From Candidatus Lindowbacteria bacterium RIFCSPLOWO2_12_FULL_62_27 (GTDB lineage: Bacteria > Lindowbacteria > 2-12-FULL-62-27), in contig MFPR01000043.1 of NCBI GenBank assembly GCA_001784175.1, positions 62,001 to 126,000 on the forward strand: a DNA stretch of 64,000 nt, written 5' to 3'. The position numbers were made by a program, and so were the translations under genes. The notes under the pieces were generated by a model, which searched no databases, was not told the origin of the DNA, and saw only the letters and a program-made list of their open reading frames with translations. Position 1 is the stretch's first letter. Each line of letters begins with the position of its first letter. Shown here in pieces: positions 18,816 through 32,012 of this stretch.

Positions 18816-20081
18816 ATGACTTTCCCACGAATTTTGACCGGGTATCTCGACCGGTGGATCCGGCGGCCCAAATCTCTCCTGCTCTGGGGGCCAAGGCAGG
18901 TCGGAAAGACAACCCTCATCGAGAACTGGCTTGAGAAAGGGTTACCGCGCGGGTGGGAATCACATGCCTATCCTCTGCAAGACCCCTCCGTCCGGCGACG
19001 GATGGAACAGGAGCCCGGCATCCTTCAGGAGGAACTTTTGGCCGGGACCGGAAAACGGAAGGTGATCTTTATCGATGAGGTACAGAAAGTGCCGGCGCTG
19101 CTCGACCTCGTCCAGCTCCTGATCGACCGGCATAAATCAAAATGGAAATTCATCCTGACGGGATCTTCCGCGCGAAAAATCCGGCGCGCCGGCGCAAATC
19201 TTCTCCCGGGCCGCGTATTTGAAAAACGGCTGGATCCCTTGATGTGGTCGGAATTGGGTTGGCCTCATCCGTCACCCGGCCGATCTTTGACGCCTCTGCC
19301 GTGGCCTAAAATGCGCAAGGCCGGCGAGGCCGGCCGGAAGACCCCGCGCTTCGGGCTTGAAGATCAGATGACATGGGGATCTCTTCCGGAAATGCCTGCG
19401 CTTGGCGCGGCGGACAGAAGCGAGACGCTGAAATCCTACGTGAGTCTTTACATCGAGCAGGAGATCCGTGCGGAGGCGCTGGCGAGAAATCTGGGCGCGT
19501 TTAACCGATTTCTTGAGCTGGCCGCGCGCGAATCCGGATCGGCCCCGAATCTTTCCAAATTGGCGCAGGAAAGCGGCGTGAGCATGCCGGCGATCAAGGG
19601 ATATTACGCGATTTTGGAGGATACATTTCTTGTCGAGCGGCTCGAGCCGTATTTGAAAAACGCGCGCAAGAGGCTGATGGCGCCGCCGCGACACTTTTTT
19701 TTCGATACCGGCGTGCGAAACGCCGCCGCGGGCCTTCCGCTCACGCGGGACATCCTCGCCGTCGAATCCGGCCGGCGCTTCGAACACCACATCATCCTCG
19801 AAACCCTGCGGCGAATTAGGTCGATGGATTTGCCCTGGAAAGTCCATTATTGGCGGACCTCCCACGGCGCCGAGGTCGATATGGTCGTGGACACCGGTGA
19901 CGAACTGGTTCCGATCGAGATCAAGCATTCCACGCACGTCTCCAGATCGGATCTCAGCGGACTCCATCAATTCATGGAGGATTACCGCTCCAAAGTCCGC
20001 CAAGGCTGGCTCGTATGCCGCATCCCAAAACCCAGAAAACTGGCCCGCCAAATTACGGCGATTCCATGGCAGATGTTGTGA
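18816..20081 (+). CDS. AAA ATPase with C-terminal DUF4143 domain
   Basis: LLWGPRQVGKTTLIENWL Walker A; VIFIDEVQKVPALLDLVQLLID; LTGSSARK; C-terminal VHYWRTSHGAEVDMVVD. Confidence 0.92.
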   Translation: MTFPRILTGYLDRWIRRPKSLLLWGPRQVGKTTLIENWLEKGLPRGWESHAYPLQDPSVRRRMEQEPGILQEELLAGTGKRKVIFIDEVQKVPALLDLVQLLIDRHKSKWKFILTGSSARKIRRAGANLLPGRVFEKRLDPLMWSELGWPHPSPGRSLTPLPWPKMRKAGEAGRKTPRFGLEDQMTWGSLPEMPALGAADRSETLKSYVSLYIEQEIRAEALARNLGAFNRFLELAARESGSAPNLSKLAQESGVSMPAIKGYYAILEDTFLVERLEPYLKNARKRLMAPPRHFFFDTGVRNAAAGLPLTRDILAVESGRRFEHHIILETLRRIRSMDLPWKVHYWRTSHGAEVDMVVDTGDELVPIEIKHSTHVSRSDLSGLHQFMEDYRSKVRQGWLVCRIPKPRKLARQITAIPWQML

Positions 20082-20168: not shown

Positions 20169-20435
20169 TTATATCAACGCCTCCGTCAGGATCCGGTCGA
20201 TCAACGTCTGATACCCCCGGAGTTTCTTCTTTTTTGCCATCTGTTTTGCCCGTTCAATCTGCCAGCGGCGCAGGCGGATCGTGACCGGGACCTTCGGAGA
20301 GGTGTCCTGAATGACCTTCTTGAACCATTCACGCTCCCCTTTGGTGAGGGGCTCTGTGTTCTCGATGTCTCCGGAGAACTCCTTGTCAAAGTGCGCGGAC
20401 AATTTTTCCAGTTCCTTCAGTCGTTTCGCTTTCAT
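20169..20435 (-). CDS. BrnA/CopG-like antitoxin
   Basis: KVPVTIRLRRWQIERAKQMAKKKKLRGYQTLIDRILTEAL; overlaps toxin-like ORF by 4 nt. Confidence 0.75.
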   Translation of the reverse strand: MKAKRLKELEKLSAHFDKEFSGDIENTEPLTKGEREWFKKVIQDTSPKVPVTIRLRRWQIERAKQMAKKKKLRGYQTLIDRILTEALI

Positions 20436-20704
20436 TCAATTTTTCTCCTTTCTTTGTCCGTCAGCGGACGGGTATGGATAACGAAAAAAGCCCCATCGTC
20501 GTCTGTCACATATGCCACCTGAAGCCACCGATCCCTGTTTGACTTCCCTCGGACAACATACGCCCCGCGGCTTTTTCTCGGATACCCCATCGCCAGATTC
20601 GAAAAAATGGATTCCACCTCCTCCGGCGTCATGTCCCGCAGATGCTTGACAATCTTCTCGAGGTTCCAGTCGTTCCAGCGGTAATTTGGATTCACCACCC
20701 CCAT
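20432..20704 (-). CDS. BrnT-like toxin
   Basis: YRWNDWNLEKIVKHLRDMTPEEVESIFSN...RWLQVAYVTDDDGAFFVIHTRPLTDKERR. Confidence 0.75.
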   Translation of the reverse strand: MGVVNPNYRWNDWNLEKIVKHLRDMTPEEVESIFSNLAMGYPRKSRGAYVVRGKSNRDRWLQVAYVTDDDGAFFVIHTRPLTDKERRKIE

Positions 20705-20942: not shown

Positions 20943-23324
20943 ATGGCGAGCCGCTGTTCGCTGGGCATTGATCTTGGTACATCGCGATCGGGCATTGCCC
21001 GGGCCTCGGTTGAGAAGACGCCTTTTGAGGTCAGGGCGCTGCCGCTTGGGAAGGTGGCCGACGGTAGGCCATCCTACAGAATGCCGTCTGTTCTTTCAGT
21101 CAATCATGGGATGGGTAGATATCTCGTTGGCGAGGATGCCGGCAGGGTTGACGGATCCAAAGGATTCAAAACATTTGCGTCTGCCAAGTCTGACCTGACC
21201 GGCAATCGCATCTACTTCGGCGGGCTGGGATCGATCTTCGTCAAGCCGTCCAACGTCCTTGCTGAAATTATTATGGAGCTTCAAAGCCGAGCGGCGCCGG
21301 CGCTCGGGATTGACGCGCGGACTCTGCCCACAACCATCGCGGTCCCCGCCTCCCTGCCCTACGATGGCCGGAAAGAAATCCTGGATGCGGCGCGGAAAGC
21401 CGGCTTGCCTGTCCGGGAAGGAGATCTTGTCGAAGAACCTGTCGCCGTATTGCTCGATTCCATATTTGGACCGGCCGGCATTCTGCCGAAGAATCCGACG
21501 GGTCCCATGCGCGTCGCCGTCTATGACATCGGTGCCGGCACATGCGATGTTGCGGTTTTCGAGCTGGATATGACGCATCGGAATGGAACCGGCCAGGATT
21601 TTCGTATTAAACCCCTCGCCATTGGTGACTATGATCGTCTGGGAGGCGATAACTTCGACATCGAAATAGCGCGCAAGGCCCTCATGCCGCAGGTTATGGG
21701 TGAACGAGGGCTTTCACCGGAAGAAGCGAGGCTTTTCATCAAACAGAATCGCCTTGTCGCAAAATGCCTCAAAGAAGAGCTTTGCCGGGCGATTGAAACC
21801 GTGTTGCTTCGAGACAACCGGCAATGCGCAAAAGTTCCGCCGATGGAATATCCGGCGCTGAAAGTGACCGGCAGGACAAATGAGGTTCCTGGCACAGATT
21901 TGATCATACCCGCAAAGGACGTTACCCTCACAACGGAAATGATGCTGCTGGCCCTGCGTCCATTCCTATCGCCGGATGCGGATGAAGGCGAAATTGAAGA
22001 AGGCCGTTGGGTCGGATCTCTCCTGGGACCGCTCGAGTTCGCGCTGATCCAGTCTGATATTGACCCGGAAACCGAACTGGACTTTCTCATTCTGTCCGGC
22101 GCCTGTTGTCGAGCCCCCTTTGTTCCCTATGTCATCAGCGCGTATTGCGCCCAGATCGGGATTCCACCTGGAAAAATCCGACATGCGGACCTGGACCTCT
22201 CTGTAGAACGCGGCGCGGCCATTCATGCCGGCGTCCTTGCGCTGACCGGACATCCGCCTATCGCTCCTGTCCTTGGTGAGGATATCGGCCTCTGGGTCTA
22301 TGGCAACCGTCCAGAGCTGATTGTAGAGGCGGGCAGAATACTGCCCTATCCACCGACGGGTGAGCAGGTGTTCGCTGACGCGTTTTTTGTCCCTGAAGAC
22401 AACTTGGATCGCTTAGTCGTCGAACTTTATGCGCGCTCACGAAAATCAAGAAAGCGCATCATCCGAAAAAGTTTCGACATCCCACAGCATACGCCTGCCG
22501 GCGCACCGGTAACGGTGTCACTCCGAATCGATGCGTCAAAAATGATTCATCTGAAAGCGGCTCTTGTCGACTATCCGGACGTTGGATTGACGATCCATGG
22601 TGAGGACGTCCGCATATCCGGCCGCGCACCCGACGAGGAGGAATGGGTGAAGTCCGCGCGAGAGAATATCCACAAGGCGGTTGAGACAACGGGGACGGCG
22701 CCTCTCAATGAACTTCTGAATCTGGCCCACGGAGAAAGTCTGCGGCACAATGAAACATCCTGGCGCAAATCGCACGAAATCCTCGACCATGTGATTGAGA
22801 ACCATCCCAGAGAAGCGCGGGCCTGGAACATTCTTGGACTCCTGCGCTGGACCGAAAACGATCTGTCCGGCGCCGAACGTGGATTCCGCAAGGCCATATC
22901 CATCGACGCTCACACTCGTTCTTACCGGACCAATCTGGGTTACGTTCTACTGGAAATGGGCCGCAGCGCCGATGCCGTTCACGTGCTTGCCGCCGCCCAT
23001 ACCCGCTGGCCCGATTATCCATATGCCGGAGAAATTTATGCGAGGGCATTGGAAGCGGAGGGAAAGTATCAGGATGCCGTCACTGCCAGACAAAAAACCA
23101 TTGTTGCATATTCAACGAGCTCAAAATCCCCCCTTCTATATGCCGGTGAAATTTCGTGGCTCGTCCGCCTATATGAAGGAATCGGAGAACGCGCGAAGGC
23201 CGATGAGATTCTGAAGCAGAAAGATCATGCATCCACACCACCGGACGTCACCGGTCCGCCGTATAAAGAAGCCCTGCTGGCCGGTCCAGATTCTCCTCAG
23301 CGTAGTCTGGCGTCGGCAAGCTGA
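20943..23324 (+). CDS. Hsp70-like ATPase with C-terminal TPR region
   Basis: SLGIDLGTSRSGIA; TTIAVPASLPYDGRKEILDAARKAGL; EEPVAVLLDS; VAVYDIGAGTCDVAVFEL; C-terminal TPRs (ARAWNILGLLRWTENDLSGAERGFRKAISID, YRTNLGYVLLEMGRSADAVHVLAAA). Confidence 0.88.
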   Translation: MASRCSLGIDLGTSRSGIARASVEKTPFEVRALPLGKVADGRPSYRMPSVLSVNHGMGRYLVGEDAGRVDGSKGFKTFASAKSDLTGNRIYFGGLGSIFVKPSNVLAEIIMELQSRAAPALGIDARTLPTTIAVPASLPYDGRKEILDAARKAGLPVREGDLVEEPVAVLLDSIFGPAGILPKNPTGPMRVAVYDIGAGTCDVAVFELDMTHRNGTGQDFRIKPLAIGDYDRLGGDNFDIEIARKALMPQVMGERGLSPEEARLFIKQNRLVAKCLKEELCRAIETVLLRDNRQCAKVPPMEYPALKVTGRTNEVPGTDLIIPAKDVTLTTEMMLLALRPFLSPDADEGEIEEGRWVGSLLGPLEFALIQSDIDPETELDFLILSGACCRAPFVPYVISAYCAQIGIPPGKIRHADLDLSVERGAAIHAGVLALTGHPPIAPVLGEDIGLWVYGNRPELIVEAGRILPYPPTGEQVFADAFFVPEDNLDRLVVELYARSRKSRKRIIRKSFDIPQHTPAGAPVTVSLRIDASKMIHLKAALVDYPDVGLTIHGEDVRISGRAPDEEEWVKSARENIHKAVETTGTAPLNELLNLAHGESLRHNETSWRKSHEILDHVIENHPREARAWNILGLLRWTENDLSGAERGFRKAISIDAHTRSYRTNLGYVLLEMGRSADAVHVLAAAHTRWPDYPYAGEIYARALEAEGKYQDAVTARQKTIVAYSTSSKSPLLYAGEISWLVRLYEGIGERAKADEILKQKDHASTPPDVTGPPYKEALLAGPDSPQRSLASAS

Positions 23325-23363: not shown

Positions 23364-24641
23364 TCAGAACGTGCCCGGCTCGACGAATCCCGACTCCGTG
23401 CCGTCCGGGGCGTAGCGGACCGAGCCCATGACGATGCCGCGGATGGGGGTTTGGTCGGAGACCGGCGTGAAGACTCGGAGGACGCGGCGGGAGAAATCGA
23501 AGGACTCGATGATGCCCATGCCCTGGCAGTGCTGTTTGGGGTCGAGGAGGCCGACGAGGACGCCGCGCTCGACGCCGCTGACGAGCGGGCGCAGGGAGGC
23601 CGTGCCGAGCAGTTTGGTGAGGGCGGCGCGGTCCCTGTCCGAGAGAGGTTTTTTGACGTAGAGGAGCGTTCCCTCATAGGCCGGGAGGCGCTCGGCCCAG
23701 ATGACCTGCGGGTGGTTGACGACGATCGGCTGGCCGCTGAAGAGGTAACAGCGGTAGAAGATGCCGGCGTCGAGCGAAAATTCCAAAATCCGTCCGTGCT
23801 TGAAATACGAGGCGCTGAGCCGCTCTCTCAATTGTTTGCGGACCTGCGGCGACGTCGGCGCCGCCTTTTTCGAGACCTTGATGCGGACGATGTGGTGCGG
23901 CGGCCGGCCACGGACCAGGTGTTCGAGTTCCTGCTCGCGCTGAAGGAGCACGACGAGGTCGGGCAGGAGGACGTCCATCTTGGCGCCCTTGAGCATCCGC
24001 CCGCCGTCGCCGTTGACCCAACCGGTCGTGTCGACGATGACGGTCGCCTCGTGCTTGAGGGCCTGCCAGGTGAGCTGCCGAACACCGATGAGGGCGTGGA
24101 CGAGATGGAGGCCCGGCGAGTGCGACCCGAGAAAATAGAGGCCGTCGACCGGCGCGTCGTGCAGGAACAACTGGGGCTGGCGCATGTAGGTCAGGCCGAA
24201 CGTGCAGGGCGGCCCGACGTCGCTCTGGCCCGCATCGCAGTCGACCACGGCGACCTTGCGGTGAAGACCGAGAAGCCGGTTGGCCATATAGGTGCAGAAA
24301 AAAGTCTTGCCGCTGTCCATTTCGCCGAGCACGAACACGACGCGCGCGTGTTCGCGGAAAATCTTGTAGACGAGGTCGTCCCAGCTCTGGGGGATGGTCC
24401 GTTCAGGAATTTTTTCAGCCGGGTTCGGGAGGGCGCTGTCGATGCGGATTTCGGCGCGTTCGCTGAATTCGACCGGTATTTTTTTGTTTTCCGGAATCTC
24501 GATGGTCTCCCCCGCGACGAGGGGCTTGCCGATCGATTCGGCCGCGCCGCGCAGGATCTCGATTCGGCTGGGGCCGCTGATGAGATAGAAACTGCCGGCG
24601 GGAATCTGAACCGGCTCGTTGGATGGGACGTTCTGGGTCAT
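23364..24641 (-). CDS. Clp1/Grc3/Nol9-type polynucleotide 5'-hydroxyl kinase
   Basis: Clp1-like N-terminal beta domain (GSFYLISGPSRIEILRG), Walker A VLGEMDSGKTFFCTYMANRLL, VAVVDCDAGQSDVGPPCTFGL, IVDTTGWVNGDGGRMLK. Confidence 0.85.
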   Translation of the reverse strand: MTQNVPSNEPVQIPAGSFYLISGPSRIEILRGAAESIGKPLVAGETIEIPENKKIPVEFSERAEIRIDSALPNPAEKIPERTIPQSWDDLVYKIFREHARVVFVLGEMDSGKTFFCTYMANRLLGLHRKVAVVDCDAGQSDVGPPCTFGLTYMRQPQLFLHDAPVDGLYFLGSHSPGLHLVHALIGVRQLTWQALKHEATVIVDTTGWVNGDGGRMLKGAKMDVLLPDLVVLLQREQELEHLVRGRPPHHIVRIKVSKKAAPTSPQVRKQLRERLSASYFKHGRILEFSLDAGIFYRCYLFSGQPIVVNHPQVIWAERLPAYEGTLLYVKKPLSDRDRAALTKLLGTASLRPLVSGVERGVLVGLLDPKQHCQGMGIIESFDFSRRVLRVFTPVSDQTPIRGIVMGSVRYAPDGTESGFVEPGTF

Positions 24642-25069
24642 TTTCGTCGTGCAGGCGTTTTCTTGTCAAAGACCAGCGTCGGCCAGAACGCCTCCAGGGT
24701 GTCGGTGCGGAATCGCTCGATGAGGCGGACGCCGGATTTGGGAATTTTAACCCGGCCATGTTTAGCCGGCGCGCCCGGCACGTCGATCTGAACGACCGCT
24801 TTGGACCATGCTGACAGTTTGCCGGCCAGAGGCTCGCCGTGTTTGGGCCACACGACGAGGAGGGCGCCCTTGGGCGGCGGGTTGTCCATCGGACACGCTT
24901 CGAAGGCCTTTCCAAGGCACACGCCGACGAGTCCGGGATAGACGGGGATCGCGTGATAGATCCGCGCCATCTCCCGAGCGTACCAGGCCACGGCTGCCGG
25001 CGGGTACTTGTTGAGGATGGTCTCGAGCTGCTTGATCATCCCGGGAAATTCGGATTCTCTATACGTCAT
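24638..25069 (-). CDS. Conserved-looking protein of unknown function coupled to the polynucleotide kinase
   Basis: ORF from ATG 25069 (MTYRESEFPGMIKQLETILNKYPP...); ATGA overlap with the kinase gene. Confidence 0.65.
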   Translation of the reverse strand: MTYRESEFPGMIKQLETILNKYPPAAVAWYAREMARIYHAIPVYPGLVGVCLGKAFEACPMDNPPPKGALLVVWPKHGEPLAGKLSAWSKAVVQIDVPGAPAKHGRVKIPKSGVRLIERFRTDTLEAFWPTLVFDKKTPARRK

Positions 25070-25070
25070 C

Positions 25071-25472
25071 CTACAGGTCCTCCGGGCCGAACGAGTCCGG
25101 CAAGAGGTCATCGACGGTCCGGACACGATATCCGCCCCGGAGATTCGCAAGCACGACCGGCATCGACTTGCCGAACTCGCGCATGACCTGCCGGCACGCG
25201 CCGCAGGGCGAGGCGAGCCGGGTTGAATGAAAGAGCACGGCCAGCGCGCGGATCTTTTTTTCGCCGGCCGCGACCGCGTTGAAGACGGCCGTGCGTTCGG
25301 CGCAGACGGTCAGGCCGTAGGATGCGTTTTCAACGTTGCACCCGCCGTATAGTTTGCCTGACCCGCCGATGACCGCGGCGCCGACATGGAATTTCGAGTA
25401 AGGCGCATGGGCGCGCCGCCGGGCGCGGGCCGCGGTTTGGATCAATTTGCGGATCTGCGCTTTCGTTATCAT
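25071..25472 (-). CDS. cdd: Cytidine deaminase
   Basis: APYSKFHVGAAV; GCNVENASYGLTVCAERTAVF; SPCGACRQVMREF. Confidence 0.95.
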   Translation of the reverse strand: MITKAQIRKLIQTAARARRRAHAPYSKFHVGAAVIGGSGKLYGGCNVENASYGLTVCAERTAVFNAVAAGEKKIRALAVLFHSTRLASPCGACRQVMREFGKSMPVVLANLRGGYRVRTVDDLLPDSFGPEDL

Positions 25473-26506
25473 GCGGCCCGCCGCCGGGACGAAAACCAGT
25501 TCCGGTCAATGATCCTGCGGATCCTTGTGCGCGTCGAGTCGTCGCAGAATGCGGCATCGGCGGCGCGCCGGACGGCCGTCGCCATCTGGGCGGCGGTCAG
25601 GCCGCAGCGCCGGACGGCCATCCGGTATTCGTGGGTCAGCGTGATGTTCGACACGCCGGGATCGTCCGAATTCACCGTGACGGCGATCCCCGCGTCCGCG
25701 AGGCGTTTCAGCGGATGCGCCCGGTAACTTTTCGCGACGTGCGTCTGAACATTCGACGTCGGGCAAATTTCCAGAGTGATGTCGTGTTTTCGCAAGAGAT
25801 CCAGAACGCGCCGGTCTTCGACGCTGTGGATTCCGTGACCGATCCGCCTCGCACCCATCCGCTCGATCGCCTCCCGCACTCGGTCCGGGCCGGCGGCCTC
25901 TCCGGCATGGATGGTGACCGGAATGTCATATTTTTGCGCGAGCCGGAACGCCGGATAGTGCGGCCGCGCGGGATGGCGGATTTCGTCGCCGGCAAAATCA
26001 ACGCCGACCACGCCCCGGCCCATATACCGCCGCGCCAGCTCGACCGTCCGGATGGACGAGGCCGGCGATTCGGACCGGTAGCAGCAGAGGATCAGGCGGA
26101 CGGTCACGCCGAATTTTTTCTGGCCGCGCCGGATTCCCCGCAGGGCGCATTCGACCACGTCCTCCATCGGAAACTCGCGGGTCGCCTGAAGGACCGGCGC
26201 GAACCGGGTTTCGAGATAGACGACGTTGTCGGCCGCCGCGTCCTCGCAGATTTCGCAGGCGATCCGCTCGACGGCCCATGGGGATTTGAGGAAATCGTAG
26301 AAGAAAAAAAATTTCTGCAGAAAGTCGGCCAAACTCCGGCAGTCCCGGCCGACCTGACAGTGTGGCGCGAGTCTGCGCACACTGCGGCTGGGCAGCGGGA
26401 ATCCGCCGGCGACGGCGAGGTCGCGCAGGGTGGCCACGCGGACCGACCCGTCCAGATGGCGGTGGAGGTCGACTTTGGGAAGCGTCTTGAAATTCGCGGG
26501 GTTCAC
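25469..26506 (-). CDS. add: Adenosine deaminase (GTG start)
   Basis: LPKVDLHRHLDGSVR; VTIHAGEAAGPDRVREAIERMGARRIGHGIHSVED; LEICPTSNVQT; VTVNSDDPGVSN. Confidence 0.93.
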   Translation of the reverse strand: MNPANFKTLPKVDLHRHLDGSVRVATLRDLAVAGGFPLPSRSVRRLAPHCQVGRDCRSLADFLQKFFFFYDFLKSPWAVERIACEICEDAAADNVVYLETRFAPVLQATREFPMEDVVECALRGIRRGQKKFGVTVRLILCCYRSESPASSIRTVELARRYMGRGVVGVDFAGDEIRHPARPHYPAFRLAQKYDIPVTIHAGEAAGPDRVREAIERMGARRIGHGIHSVEDRRVLDLLRKHDITLEICPTSNVQTHVAKSYRAHPLKRLADAGIAVTVNSDDPGVSNITLTHEYRMAVRRCGLTAAQMATAVRRAADAAFCDDSTRTRIRRIIDRNWFSSRRRAA

Positions 26507-27420
26507 TTTTTTTTGACAAAATATTTGTCGAGGAGGAACGCGAGCTTCGCGCGGGTTCGCGGCGGAACAAGATCCCGCGCGGTCACGATGGCGTTGGCGA
26601 GCGCGGAGTGGCACGGGCAGGACTCGTTCAGGCGTTTGGCCAGCGAGAGGATCGCCGTTCGGGCGATTCTCTTGGCGTTCTCCGCGTTTTTGAGCAGTGT
26701 CTGGATCACCATGTCGGCCGTAACGGCGTCGTGGCCTTCATACCAGCAGTCGTAGTCGGTCGGCAGTGCGCAGATGGCGTAACAGATCTCGGCTTCGCGC
26801 GCGAGTTTCGCCTCCGGCAGGGCCGTCATGCCGATGACCGATGCGCCCCAGGACCGGTGCAGGTGCGATTCGGCCTTCGTGGAGAATTGCGGGCCCTCCA
26901 TCACGACGTAGGTCCCGCCGCGGTGGACGTTCAGATGCTGTGCCTGCGCCGCGTCGTACAGCAACGCTGAGACCTTCGGGCAAAACGGATCGGCGAATGC
27001 GACATGCGCGACAACGCCCTCGCCGAAAAATGTCCCGGGCCGGTGCCGGGTCCGGTCGATGAGCTGGTCCGGAATCACGATGTCGCGGCCCGGCACGATC
27101 TCCTCCTTGAGCGAACCCACCGCCGACAGAGACAGGATCCATCGCACGCCGAGCGATTTGAGCGCGCAGATGTTCGCGCGCGAATTGACTTCGGTCGGCA
27201 AAATCCGGTGGCCCCGGCCGTGCCGGGGCAGAAACGCCACGCGCGCGCCGCCCAGCCGGCCCACGCGGATGCGGTCGGACGGTTCGCCGAAGGGCGTGTC
27301 GATTTCGATTTCCTGAAGGTCCTCGACGCCCTCCATATCATAAATGCCGCTGCCGCCGATCACGCCGATCGCCGGCGCGCTGTGCGCCGCGGCCATCTTT
27401 TTGGCCTTTGCCATGATCAC
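26503..27420 (-). CDS. mtnP: S-methyl-5'-thioadenosine phosphorylase
   Basis: IGVIGGSGIYDMEGV; FLPRHGRGHRILPTEVNSRANICALKSLG; LSAVGSLKEEIVPGDIVIPDQ-like; YVVMEGPQFSTKAES; VIGMTALPEAKLAREAEICYA. Confidence 0.95.
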   Translation of the reverse strand: MIMAKAKKMAAAHSAPAIGVIGGSGIYDMEGVEDLQEIEIDTPFGEPSDRIRVGRLGGARVAFLPRHGRGHRILPTEVNSRANICALKSLGVRWILSLSAVGSLKEEIVPGRDIVIPDQLIDRTRHRPGTFFGEGVVAHVAFADPFCPKVSALLYDAAQAQHLNVHRGGTYVVMEGPQFSTKAESHLHRSWGASVIGMTALPEAKLAREAEICYAICALPTDYDCWYEGHDAVTADMVIQTLLKNAENAKRIARTAILSLAKRLNESCPCHSALANAIVTARDLVPPRTRAKLAFLLDKYFVKKK

Positions 27421-27644
27421 GCCCTCTTCTTTTTGTTCTTTAAATGTTTTCCGGCCAGCAGATCCCGCTGGAGCTTTGAGATGTCCAGCTTGCGCTTCGC
27501 GGTTTCCCGCTCATCCACGCGGATCTCGACGACGAGGCCCTCGCGGGCGCCCGCGACGTACTTGGCCGGGATTTCCAGTTGCCCGCCGTCGTCGAACTCG
27601 ATGACGGCGATGCCCTCCTCGATCCGATCAATGACGCCCTTCAT
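27417..27644 (-). CDS. DUF3006-like small protein
   Basis: MKGVIDRIEEGIAVIEFDDGGQLEIPAKYV... Confidence 0.7.
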   Translation of the reverse strand: MKGVIDRIEEGIAVIEFDDGGQLEIPAKYVAGAREGLVVEIRVDERETAKRKLDISKLQRDLLAGKHLKNKKKRA

Positions 27645-29887
27645 CCGGAATTCCTTTCCGTGGCGGGCCGAACGTCCTCCAGGACCAACTGCAAGTCGAT
27701 TCGCCCTTGCCATTCGTTGCGGTCCAGCTCAAAGGCCGCGTTCACGCGGCGGCCGAGCGTGTCCGCATCGTCGCTCATGTTCCACCCGACGGCCGTCACC
27801 GCGTCGCGGGCGGTTGCGCCCAGCCGCAGCCGCAGGTGGCGGCCGTCGGCGCCGATCCGCCGGACGTCCGCCACCGGCGCGCCGAACAGCGCGAACCTCG
27901 GAAACGGATTGCCCTTGCCGAACGGCTCCAGAACGGAGATATCCTCAAGGGTGGCCATGGTCAAGTCCCCGAGCTGAAGTTCCGCGTCGATCGTCAGGAC
28001 CGGTTCCGGCATGTCCCTGAGGCGTTCAGCCACGGATTTTTTGAGCCGCTTGAAAAAGTCCGGTATGTTTTCCGGCCGGATGGTCAAGCCGACCGCCTGG
28101 TGGTGTCCGCCGAATTTCTCCAGAAGGTCCGCGCAGGTCCCGACGGCCTCGACCAGGTCCAGCGATTCGATCGACCGCGCCGACCCGACGGCCCTGCCCT
28201 CCTCCTCCATCACGATGACGACGGGCCGGGCGAACGCGTTTTTGACGCGCGCGGCGACGATGCCTCCGACGCCCGGCGGAACGCCCTCGGCGCGAACGCA
28301 GAGAATGCGGTCGGCGTCGAGGTTGTTTTGAAGCGGGACCATCTCCATCACCCGCGCGGCATGGACCTTCACCAGATCCTTTCGCTCCTCGTTCATCCGG
28401 ATGAGCTGGTCCGACAGGTATGCGGCTTCGTGATCCGACTGCGTGGTCAGCATCCGGAATGCAGGCAGCGGGTCGCCGAGCCGGCCGGGCGCGTTGAGGA
28501 GCGGGCCGAGGAGAAACGCGAGGTCCTTGCCGGTGGGCTCCGCGAGCGCCAGTTTTTCGAGGAGCCGTTTGAGGCCGATGGGTGGCGCGTGGCGCATAAT
28601 GCGGAGTCCCTCGGCCACGATGGCGCGGTTTTCTCCGACAAGCGGCATCATGTCGGCGACAGCGGCGAGCGCGGCCAGGGGCATGAGCTGTTCGTAATAA
28701 ACCTCGTCTTCAATCGATTCCCTTTCGAGGAGCTTGTAAAAGACGTCCGCGGTCGCCTGCGCGTCCGAGAGCGCGCGGTGGGCGGCGGGATTGACGACGC
28801 CGAGCGCTTCCGCCACGCGGCTGAGCTTGCGGCTGGGAAGTTCCGTGAGGGTCGAGGTTGCGACGGCCATGACGTCCAGGAAAGACGTCGACAGCCGCGT
28901 CTGGAGATGCCGGCCAAGTTCCGCGTCGAGAAAATCGCGGTCGAATTCCACATTGTAGCCGCAGAACACGGTGTCGGGGCCTTCCAGGAAACCCAATAAT
29001 TTTTTGAGCGCCGTCCGCGGCTCGATCCCGTGCGCGGCGAGGTCCTCGTCGGTGATCCCGGTGATCCGTCGGATCTCCTCCGGCAGAGGCCCTGCGGGCT
29101 TGACGAAGCACGAGAACTCGGATTGCCGGACGCCGTTGCGGTATTTGACGGCGCCGATTTCGATCACTTCGTCCTTCGCGCGGTCCAGCCCCGTCGTTTC
29201 GACGTCGACGAACACCAGCGTGCGGTTCGCGAAGGGCGACCGGCCGGCGATGAGGGCCATGGCGAGCTTGAAGGCGACCCCGGCGCCGGAAAGATGTTTG
29301 AACGGATACGTTTCGCCCGGCACGGCCGGGTGGAGGATCGCATAGGCGGGCGGCAGCGTGTCTTTCTGCTGGTGATGATCGGCGACGATGACGTCCATCC
29401 CGGCGCGGGCCGCCTCCTCGATCCGCTCGATCTCCGCGATGCCGGTGTCGACGGTGATGCCCAGCGTGCACCCTTCGCGGATCGCCCGCGCCATGACCTC
29501 GGGATGTACGCCGTACCCTTCCGACCCGGTCGGAATGTGGCTGTCGACGTCGGCGCCGAAGGCGGTCAGGACGATGCGGAGGATGGCGGTACCCGCCATG
29601 CCGTCGACGTCGCGATCACCGAAAATGAAAATCTTCTCGCCGTCCGCGATGGCCCGACGGAGTCGCGCAACGGCGCGTTCCATTTGAGTGAACAAAAATG
29701 GCGAGTGGAGATGCCGGCGTACCGGGTTTAGGAATTCCGTGGCCTCGGGCGCTGTCCGGACGCCGCGATTCACGAGAAGCCTCGCGAGAAGCGGGCTGAG
29801 TTGCAGGGCCGAAACGAGATCGTGTTCGGCGGCCGAGTCTCCGGCCGCGACCCGCCAGACCGGGGGGGCTATTTGAGAATCTGCCAT
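27641..29887 (-). CDS. recJ: Single-stranded-DNA-specific exonuclease RecJ with an internal DnaQ-like DEDDh exonuclease domain
   Basis: DHH core motifs GDRDVDGMAGT, VDTGI, VADHHQQ, ADMMPLVGENR; inserted FVDVETTG (ExoI), GYNVEFDRDFL (ExoII), AHRALSDAQAT (ExoIII). Confidence 0.92.
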   Translation of the reverse strand: MADSQIAPPVWRVAAGDSAAEHDLVSALQLSPLLARLLVNRGVRTAPEATEFLNPVRRHLHSPFLFTQMERAVARLRRAIADGEKIFIFGDRDVDGMAGTAILRIVLTAFGADVDSHIPTGSEGYGVHPEVMARAIREGCTLGITVDTGIAEIERIEEAARAGMDVIVADHHQQKDTLPPAYAILHPAVPGETYPFKHLSGAGVAFKLAMALIAGRSPFANRTLVFVDVETTGLDRAKDEVIEIGAVKYRNGVRQSEFSCFVKPAGPLPEEIRRITGITDEDLAAHGIEPRTALKKLLGFLEGPDTVFCGYNVEFDRDFLDAELGRHLQTRLSTSFLDVMAVATSTLTELPSRKLSRVAEALGVVNPAAHRALSDAQATADVFYKLLERESIEDEVYYEQLMPLAALAAVADMMPLVGENRAIVAEGLRIMRHAPPIGLKRLLEKLALAEPTGKDLAFLLGPLLNAPGRLGDPLPAFRMLTTQSDHEAAYLSDQLIRMNEERKDLVKVHAARVMEMVPLQNNLDADRILCVRAEGVPPGVGGIVAARVKNAFARPVVIVMEEEGRAVGSARSIESLDLVEAVGTCADLLEKFGGHHQAVGLTIRPENIPDFFKRLKKSVAERLRDMPEPVLTIDAELQLGDLTMATLEDISVLEPFGKGNPFPRFALFGAPVADVRRIGADGRHLRLRLGATARDAVTAVGWNMSDDADTLGRRVNAAFELDRNEWQGRIDLQLVLEDVRPATERNSG

Positions 29888-31188
29888 ATCAGTTTCCTTT
29901 TTTTGGGCCGCCCGGCGCCGATTTTCAGCGCCGCCAGAAACCGCGCCCGGCCGTCAGGGATGCGGGCGGGATCGCCGGCATGAAGCCATGCGACGGGCTC
30001 GCCCTTTTTCACGCGATCGCCCGTTTTTTTGGCAAGGACAATTCCCGCGGCAAAATCGATTTTGTCCGACGCGCGCGTCCGGCCGGCGCCGAGCAGGAGA
30101 GACGCGACGCCGACATCCCGCGCCGCCAGCCGCTGAACGACGCCGCTCTTTGGCGCCTCGACCGCAACGACATGCCGGGCCGCCGGAAGGCGCGCGGGGT
30201 CGTCGATCGCCTTGGGATCGCCGCCCTGGGCTTCGACGATCTCCGCGAATTTCCGGCGGGCCTGGCCGTTGGACAACACGGTGAGGATGGCCTTGCGGCC
30301 CTCCTCGGAATTTTTTACGCGGCCCGCAAGTTTGAGCATTTCGGCGCCGAAGGTGACCACGAGTTCCCGCAGGTCGGCCGGCCCCTCGCCCGACAGGCAC
30401 TCGATGGTTTCGCGGATCTCCAGCGCGTTGCCGATGGCCCGGCCCAAGGGCTGTTCCATGTCGGTGATGAAACAGACGGCGGGCCGGCCGGCTTTCCGGC
30501 AGATGCCGAGCATCGCGCGTGCGAGGCGTTTGGAGTCGGCGAGGGTCTGCATGAATGCGCCGTGCCCGGTCTTGACGTCGAGCACAAGCGCCTCGGGACC
30601 CGCCGCAAGTTTTTTGGAGAGGATGCTGGCGGCGATGAGGGGAATGCAGTCGACGGTGGCGGTCACGTCGCGGAGCGCGTACATTTTTCGGTCGGCGGGC
30701 GCGATCTTGTCCGTCTGGCCGATGATGGCGCCGCCGACGCGGGACAGGACCTGGACGAACTCATCTTTTGACAGATTCGTGCGGAATCCGGGGATCGATT
30801 CAAGCTTGTCGAGCGTCCCGCCCGTGTGTCCGAGCCCGCGGCCGGACATCATCGGGACGGGCACGCCGCAGGCGGCGACGGCGGGCGTGAGCGGCAGCGA
30901 AACCTTGTCGCCGACCCCGCCCGTCGAATGCTTGTCGACGGTCCGGACGGGAAACCGGCCGTGCAGGTCGAGGACTTCGCCGGACGCCATCATCTCCTGT
31001 GTGAGCGCCGCCGTTTCCGCGTCGTCCATCCCGTGGAAAAAGACGGCCATCAGGAAGGCGGCCATCTGGTAGTCGGGGATGTCGCCCCGCGTGAACCCGC
31101 CGACCATGAACTCGATCTCGTCGCGGTCCAGGCGCCGGCCGTTGCGTTTTTTGAAAATGATTTCGTAAGGAAGGAAATTCGGGCTCAT
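29869..31188 (-). CDS. deoA: Thymidine/pyrimidine-nucleoside phosphorylase
   Basis: FMVGGFTRGDIPDYQMAAFLMAVFFHGM; VDKHSTGGVGDKVSLPLTPAVAACGVPVPMMSGRGLGHTGGTLDKLESIPG. Confidence 0.95.
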   Translation of the reverse strand: MSPNFLPYEIIFKKRNGRRLDRDEIEFMVGGFTRGDIPDYQMAAFLMAVFFHGMDDAETAALTQEMMASGEVLDLHGRFPVRTVDKHSTGGVGDKVSLPLTPAVAACGVPVPMMSGRGLGHTGGTLDKLESIPGFRTNLSKDEFVQVLSRVGGAIIGQTDKIAPADRKMYALRDVTATVDCIPLIAASILSKKLAAGPEALVLDVKTGHGAFMQTLADSKRLARAMLGICRKAGRPAVCFITDMEQPLGRAIGNALEIRETIECLSGEGPADLRELVVTFGAEMLKLAGRVKNSEEGRKAILTVLSNGQARRKFAEIVEAQGGDPKAIDDPARLPAARHVVAVEAPKSGVVQRLAARDVGVASLLLGAGRTRASDKIDFAAGIVLAKKTGDRVKKGEPVAWLHAGDPARIPDGRARFLAALKIGAGRPKKRKLIWQILK

Positions 31189-32008
31189 TTGAATTCCGGT
31201 TCTTTCATCATCTCCATCACGAGGCGTTGGAATTGCCCGGCGACCCGCTCGGACGTTTCGATCACTTCGGCGTGGGACAGGGCCTGCTTGCTGACGCCGG
31301 CCGCGAGGTTCGAGACCAGGGAAATCGACAGGCATCGCATGTTCATATGGCGGCCGGCCAGAATTTCGGGCACGGTCGACATCCCGACGGCGTCCGCGCC
31401 GAGTTTTCGCAGCATCCGCACCTCGGACGGCGTCTCGTAGCTCGGGCCGAGACACGCGGCGTACACGCCCTCCTGAATCCGCAGCTTCATCCGCCGCGCC
31501 ACCCGCCGGGCGGCGGCGCGAAGGTCCGCATCGTAGGCACAGGTCATGTCGTAAAACCGCGGACCCAGGCTGTCCGGGTTCGGGCCGCGGAGCGGATGGT
31601 CGCCGAGAAGATTGAGATGGTCGCGGATCAGCATGAGGTCTCCGACACGGAATTTTTTGTTGATCCCGCCGACGGCGTTGGCGGTGAAGAGGATCGACGC
31701 GCCGAGAAGTTTCATGAGCCGCACGCCGAAGACGATCTTGTCCATCGGGTGGCCTTCGTAATAATGGACGCGGCCCTGCATCGCGACCACCGGCACGCCG
31801 TGGAGGGCGCCGAAGACCAGGTTGCCGGCGTGTCCGGGAACGTTCGTCCGCGGAAATTCGGGAATGTCCTCGTACCGGATCGCCTCCCGGCCGGCCAGCC
31901 GGTCGGCGAGCCCGCCCAGACCCGACCCGAGGACGATCGCCACGCGGGGCGTGAGCGAAACACGGCGCCGGACGGCGCGGAGCGCGGTCTGCAGGTCGGC
32001 GGCGCCGC

Positions 32009-32012
<4 letters not shown>
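31185..32012 (-). CDS. punA: Purine nucleoside phosphorylase
   Basis: VAIVLGSGLGGLADRL; MQGRVHYYEGHPMDKIVFGVRLMKLLG; AACLGPSYETPSEVRMLRKLGADAVGMSTVPE. Confidence 0.95.

Follow-up and report, generated by a model that had tools for sequence, protein, structure and literature searches.

A three-domain, long-form bacterial Clp1/Nol9-type polynucleotide kinase with a conserved partner gene and an associated DHH-family nuclease

What does a polynucleotide kinase of the Clp1/Nol9/Grc3 family do in a bacterium, and which genes accompany it? The question is raised by a reading frame in a 64,000-nucleotide stretch (the window) of the genome of Candidatus Lindowbacteria bacterium RIFCSPLOWO2_12_FULL_62_27. 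The initial annotation called the bacterial members of the family poorly characterised. Such kinases have already been described and one is active in vitro (PMC6777427); we found no paper assigning a function to any of them. The source genome, 94% complete with 4.39 Mb in 44 contigs, carries a single copy of the gene, and full-length orthologues share 76, 71, and 43% identity with its product; the nearest named relative, at 76%, is a Candidatus Lindowbacteria metagenome-assembled genome of the same family. The reading frame is open throughout with no interruption and lies exactly where the initial annotation had placed it, on the minus strand, which that annotation had not given (Table 1). A 446-aa reading frame antisense to it, on the plus strand, is probably a mechanical shadow of GC-rich DNA.

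The assignment to the Clp1/Nol9/Grc3 family, first proposed from short motifs, is upheld by profile comparison. Residues 106 to 281 match CLP1_P in a Pfam scan (E=2.7e-34), and the search against this model that had been proposed in advance gave a score well over the curated cut-off (119.1 bits versus 26.6), covering positions 1 to 187 of the 188 in the model. All 16 long-form members of the family (see below) also exceed the cut-off when scanned singly. NOL9, Clp1, and Grc3 are the nearest sequences of solved structure, and the protein matches no model in NCBIfam and nothing in PADLOC. The peptides originally quoted in favour of the assignment (GEMDSGKT, VVDCDAGQSDVGPPC, DTTGWVNGDGGRMLK, and a C-terminal stretch) are all located in the reading frame, and the Walker A, Walker B, clasp, and lid motifs are intact. 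As judged from these features, the product is very likely an ATP-dependent 5'-hydroxyl polynucleotide kinase in its predicted chemistry. By family the kinase is ordinary; its subfamily and its association with a partner and a nuclease are new.

Table 1. Features of the kinase locus (window coordinates; residues refer to the kinase)
Feature	Position	Strand	Size or detail	Basis
Long-form bacterial Clp1/Nol9-type polynucleotide kinase gene	23364..24641	-	425 aa	CLP1_P match, model, invariant residues
N-terminal domain, Clp1/Nol9-like	24354..24620	-	residues 8-96 (about 1-97)	profile collinear with human Clp1
CLP1_P kinase domain		-	about residues 98-282	Pfam
C-terminal domain	23367..23795	-	residues 283-425; ends DG.E.GF..PG	NOL9_C in 4/16 members, below cut-off
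Conserved partner gene	24638..25069	-	143 aa (MTYRESEFP...)	next to long Clp1 in 16/16 genomes having the partner
Cytidine deaminase (CDA), first salvage gene upstream	25071..25472	-		TIGR01354, 145.7 bits, over cut-off
Adenosine deaminase (ADA)	25469..26614	-		TIGR01430, 319 bits, over cut-off
S-methyl-5'-thioadenosine phosphorylase (MTAP)	26503..27420	-		TIGR01694, 323 bits, over cut-off
DUF3006 protein	27417..27713	-		PF11213, E=8.6e-14
RecJ	27641..29887	-	DEDD exonuclease domain inserted between DHH and DHHA1	TIGR00644, 489 bits; RNase_T 225-383
Pyrimidine-nucleoside/thymidine phosphorylase (PyNP)	29869..31455 (ORF as listed)	-		TIGR02644, 563 bits
Purine-nucleoside phosphorylase (PNP)	31185..32012	-		TIGR01700, 324 bits, over cut-off

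The predicted fold agrees with the family match along the whole chain. In a Foldseek search of the PDB, an AlphaFold2 model built with nine relatives (one predicted structure; pLDDT 89, pTM 0.87) retrieved human Clp1 first (E=1.2e-24), followed by Caenorhabditis elegans Clp1 with bound nucleotide and RNA (TM 0.67-0.73) and then by Grc3 at about 1e-18, in each case across the chain. Eukaryotic Clp1 is thus the best overall fold match (TM about 0.65-0.73) and the active-site residues are kept, but identity in the structural alignment is 14-16% and no counterpart of Pcf11 or TSEN was seen. A profile of the relatives (9 or 16) aligns positions 17-274 with residues 53-327 of human Clp1, from the N-terminal domain through the lid (E=3.1e-22), in keeping with the Clp1-like N-terminal domain proposed in the initial annotation. 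Across the 16 long-form proteins, the Walker A lysine K112, the clasp residues D136, G138, and Q139, T205, G207, and the lid arginines R268 and R272 are invariant; W208 is found in 15, and position 204 is D or N.

The flanking domains yield fainter matches. The window protein itself matches CLP1_P only in the Pfam scan, with no match to Cupin_NOL9, CLP1_N, or NOL9_C; scans of the long-form members one by one gave Cupin_NOL9 in 3 of the 16 (best 4.6e-5), CLP1_N in 2 (0.074), and NOL9_C in 4 (best 0.0032, below cut-off). Searched alone against the PDB, the N-domain profile had Grc3 as its sole relevant match, a weak one (E=0.3), and the C-domain profile had none. The C-terminal resemblance to Clp1 that had been suggested earlier is nonetheless supported by the Clp1 fold across the chain, and the three-domain homology to Clp1/Nol9 is well supported, given that whole-length alignment and predicted fold agree. 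The order of N-domain, CLP1_P, and C-domain is the same as in Nol9/Grc3, which acts in eukaryotic ITS2 processing with Las1 and Rat1, and the Cupin_NOL9 and NOL9_C matches among the long members are weak but specific; affinity of the long form to Nol9 rather than to Clp1 is only suggestive.

We surveyed 386 genomes, spread over families and mostly metagenome-assembled, counting a CLP1_P match of at least 44 bits as convincing. Such matches occur in 47 of them; with sampling of this kind, the figure should not be set against the 0.9% of bacterial species given in PMC6777427. Lengths and phylogeny were compared for 16 long and 24 other proteins, all bacterial. The N-domain measures 83-99 aa in all 16 long forms, against a tail of 15-28 aa in 23 of the 24 others and of 66 aa in one; the C-domain spans 136-142 aa in every long form, with C-terminal lengths overlapping between the two groups. 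In the kinase-domain tree the long forms fall on one side of a branch with support of 86/82, or 99/96 when one sequence (L081) is removed. The kinase is accordingly a member of a distinct, three-domain, long bacterial branch that is separate from the short form. Thermus scotoductus Clp1 (Ts-Clp1) shares the kinase domain family and is also bacterial, but it reportedly lacks both terminal domains (PMC6777427), whereas the window kinase has them. The surroundings differ as well: when the neighbourhoods of 20 short forms were compared with the reference proteins from long-form loci, none of the proteins described below (partner, DHH, P-loop kinase, RecJ, and salvage enzymes) had a homologue there. 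Three short forms (L012, L109, and L111) come from a single family, f46, in which two genomes share their gene order; by eye, the upstream ORFs in L012 resemble a RapZ C-terminal region and WhiA, and the downstream ORF resembles GAPDH.

The closest companion of the long form is the partner gene, which overlaps the start of the kinase gene by 4 bases in the window. A profile search found it in 16 of the 386 genomes, always adjacent to a CLP1_P gene on the same contig, and homologues stand immediately before the kinase in L002, L003, L004, L018, L019, L021, and L022. As far as gene content tells, the pairing with long Clp1 is obligate wherever the partner occurs; two long forms (L020 and L084) have no detected partner, and 31 of the genomes with a convincing CLP1_P match do not have the gene. 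The partner protein matches nothing above cut-off in Pfam, NCBIfam, or PADLOC. Its invariant positions (YPGLV, WP.L.F) are structural in appearance, and the alignment holds no catalytic-looking conserved residues and, by eye, no HEPN-type motif. The single predicted structure (pLDDT 77) has a helical N-terminus and a small beta-barrel, for which the best PDB matches are Hfq/LSm proteins; with E=8.8e-3 and about 54 residues aligned, this is a hint of an Sm-like fold and is not put forward as a claim.

Together, kinase and partner close an apparent operon for nucleoside salvage and RecJ. The minus-strand order in the window is PNP, PyNP, RecJ, DUF3006, MTAP, ADA, CDA, partner, and kinase, and gene overlaps and the shared strand suggest that these genes form one transcript. 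The true start of the PyNP gene is probably internal to the listed ORF, as residue 94-98 is the first to be covered by the family match. The sister genome G002 (L088) has nearly the same gene set, L016 and L074 have a large part of it, and nucleoside phosphorylases or deaminases adjoin the kinase in several lineages. Neither salvage nor DHH genes are linked to the pair in 4 of the 16 partner genomes (G020, G134, G167, and G214), two of which have it on very short contigs. Homologous RecJ genes occur in the same operon in relatives. With salvage genes around it, the kinase might be thought to have turned the Clp1 fold to a nucleoside or similar small salvage substrate; the clasp, tryptophan, and lid residues of Clp1 are kept in nearly all members, and we regard such a change of substrate as very unlikely. 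A known defence system was also considered and rejected: the kinase, the partner, and the DHH protein have no PADLOC match, and the window RecJ matches through a generic exonuclease domain only.

A family of P-loop kinases (A7) with a DDFPKLW motif, unmatched above cut-off by any curated family, is encoded directly before the partner in L016 (4917-5564), L021 (4899-5564), L076-L078, and L081. Of the 11 genomes with strong matches to it, 9 have the partner, and a search of the source genome gave no match. In two genomes of one family (G073 and G343, f72), DHH and P-loop kinase genes overlap, and neither genome has a CLP1_P or partner match.

A further association is with a stand-alone nuclease of the DHH family (RecJ/NrnA superfamily). 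Its gene occurs in 16 of the 386 genomes, namely in 14 of the 16 with the partner and in 2 others, and is absent from all 31 genomes in which CLP1_P lacks a partner gene. A hypergeometric calculation (14 shared of 16 and 16) gives P = 1e-21, which overstates the association because the genomes are related; at the family level, all 8 families with the DHH gene are among the 9 with the partner (about 260 families assumed). In L073, L074 (where the partner was taken from the same record as L019), L075, L080, L082, and L083 the DHH gene immediately precedes the partner; in L076-L078 a few genes separate the two. The kinase and DHH genes are on separate contigs in the source genome (the DHH gene at C1:172808-174139, its product 35% identical to the L018 protein), in G002, and in three others, and no DHH gene was detected in G001 and G134, where the kinase-partner pair is present. 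On this pattern of gene content, the nuclease is co-inherited with the partner and long Clp1. The proteins are about 430-475 aa long and fall well short of the cut-offs for all named RecJ families, with no RecJ_OB match and none in PADLOC. Eight members conserve the DHH, DKG, DHH, and GGGH motifs, so that the DHH and GGGH motifs of RecJ, archaeal RecJ2, and NrnA are kept. At the N-terminus the proteins resemble archaeal and bacterial RecJ profiles, and among solved structures their profile matches archaeal RecJ and its relatives in that part.

What could such a set of genes do? We consider it about an even chance that the kinase primes RNA or DNA fragments with 5'-OH ends for degradation by a DHH exonuclease and for salvage. 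The kinase would add a phosphate to single-stranded RNA or DNA fragments that carry a 5'-OH, with the partner serving as its adaptor or nucleic-acid-binding subunit, and the new 5'-phosphate would make the fragments good substrates for a DHH-family exonuclease, which may be the co-inherited stand-alone protein, the operon RecJ, or both. The released monomers would then pass to the nucleoside-salvage enzymes that the cluster encodes. Of the two possible substrates of the kinase, RNA is more likely than DNA. We infer that the DHH enzyme works from the 5' side and depends on a 5'-phosphate, that the proteins are in contact, and that the pathway serves salvage.

This reading is the best one on account of the biochemistry of related kinases and nucleases together with the gene association. 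Kinases of the Clp1 family act on RNA with a 5'-OH end. Ts-Clp1 phosphorylates 5'-OH single-stranded RNA in vitro and uses single-stranded DNA at high enzyme (PMC6777427), and in yeast Las1 yields products with 5'-OH ends that the kinase Grc3 phosphorylates before Rat1 degrades them (PMC10942766); by analogy, the long-form bacterial kinase may likewise pass a 5'-phosphate to an exonuclease. A 5'-phosphate stimulates Methanocaldococcus jannaschii RecJ1 on single-stranded DNA, with a weak effect on single-stranded RNA, and RecJ2 clearly degrades from the 5' end only when that end is phosphorylated (PMC5615345). Dependence on a 5'-phosphate is also seen in a dinuclease with a different fold (PMC8492067). 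DHH enzymes differ in polarity and substrate.

The stimulation of RecJ1 and the use of DNA by Ts-Clp1, along with the RecJ gene within the operon, would also suit a kinase that readies 5'-OH single-stranded DNA ends for RecJ-type resection in repair. Characterised Clp1-family kinases, however, prefer RNA (PMC6777427), and the other linked genes are for salvage, a UvrA gene further upstream being the sole other repair gene seen; a role in DNA-end processing is thus rather unlikely. An unlikely alternative, though one that shares the kinase-exonuclease logic (PMC10942766), is maturation of stable RNA (rRNA or tRNA precursors) instead of bulk turnover and salvage, with the kinase and 5'-to-3' trimming by the DHH enzyme as a counterpart of Las1-Grc3-Rat1. 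The Nol9/Grc3 domain order and the absence of an RNase J match (TIGR00649) from the source genome, where control genomes gave matches, are in its favour, but the linked genes belong to nucleoside catabolism and not to RNA maturation, and no Las1-like endonuclease was seen among the kinase neighbours, the partner showing no HEPN-type motif by eye.

Repair of RNA was weighed too, including tRNA splicing, in which the kinase would heal 5'-OH ends for an RNA ligase to reseal, as proposed for Clp1 in 5'-phosphate ligation. Clp1, the best structural match, belongs to the human TSEN splicing complex, and the source genome encodes RtcB. RtcB requires a 5'-OH, so the kinase would oppose it. The genome has no match to an ATP-dependent RNA ligase of the PF09414 type, again with matches in the control genomes, and the neighbours, most of which were compared with the reference set only, included no recognisable ligase or cyclic phosphodiesterase. 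The presence of RtcB without a TIGR00649 or PF09414 match weakens the repair reading, which we consider quite unlikely; the lack of these two matches also speaks for degradation.

Returning to degradation of primed fragments, we offer as a tentative and broader proposal that in several bacterial lineages the kinase, an adaptor that may have an Sm-like barrel, and the new DHH family form a counterpart of Grc3 plus Rat1, converting refractory 5'-OH ends to 5'-phosphate ends from which degradation would proceed on the 5' side. The bacterial candidate exonuclease differs from Rat1 in being a DHH enzyme, not an XRN, and in its link to salvage. In the literature searched, we recognised no paper linking Clp1 with RecJ/DHH genes in bacteria. 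As its genes come as a set, the long branch offers a concrete and testable answer to the question of what bacterial Clp1 does. The gene set is suggestive of bacterial machinery that marks broken ends of nucleic acids for breakdown. It also draws attention to the partner and the stand-alone DHH nuclease as uncharacterised families open to joint testing. If the reading is true, the three-domain Clp1/Nol9 architecture is not restricted to eukaryotes.

Other genes lie just beyond the kinase in the window. The gene at 20943-23324 on the plus strand, convergent with the kinase gene, encodes an HSP70-like domain followed by TPR repeats. Two overlapping minus-strand ORFs (20169-20435 and 20432-20704) may form a toxin-antitoxin pair, in which a BrnA-like ORF with a weak antitoxin match, below cut-off, is preceded by a 90-aa ORF with no Pfam match. 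An AAA_14/DUF4143 ATPase is encoded at 18816-20081 on the plus strand.
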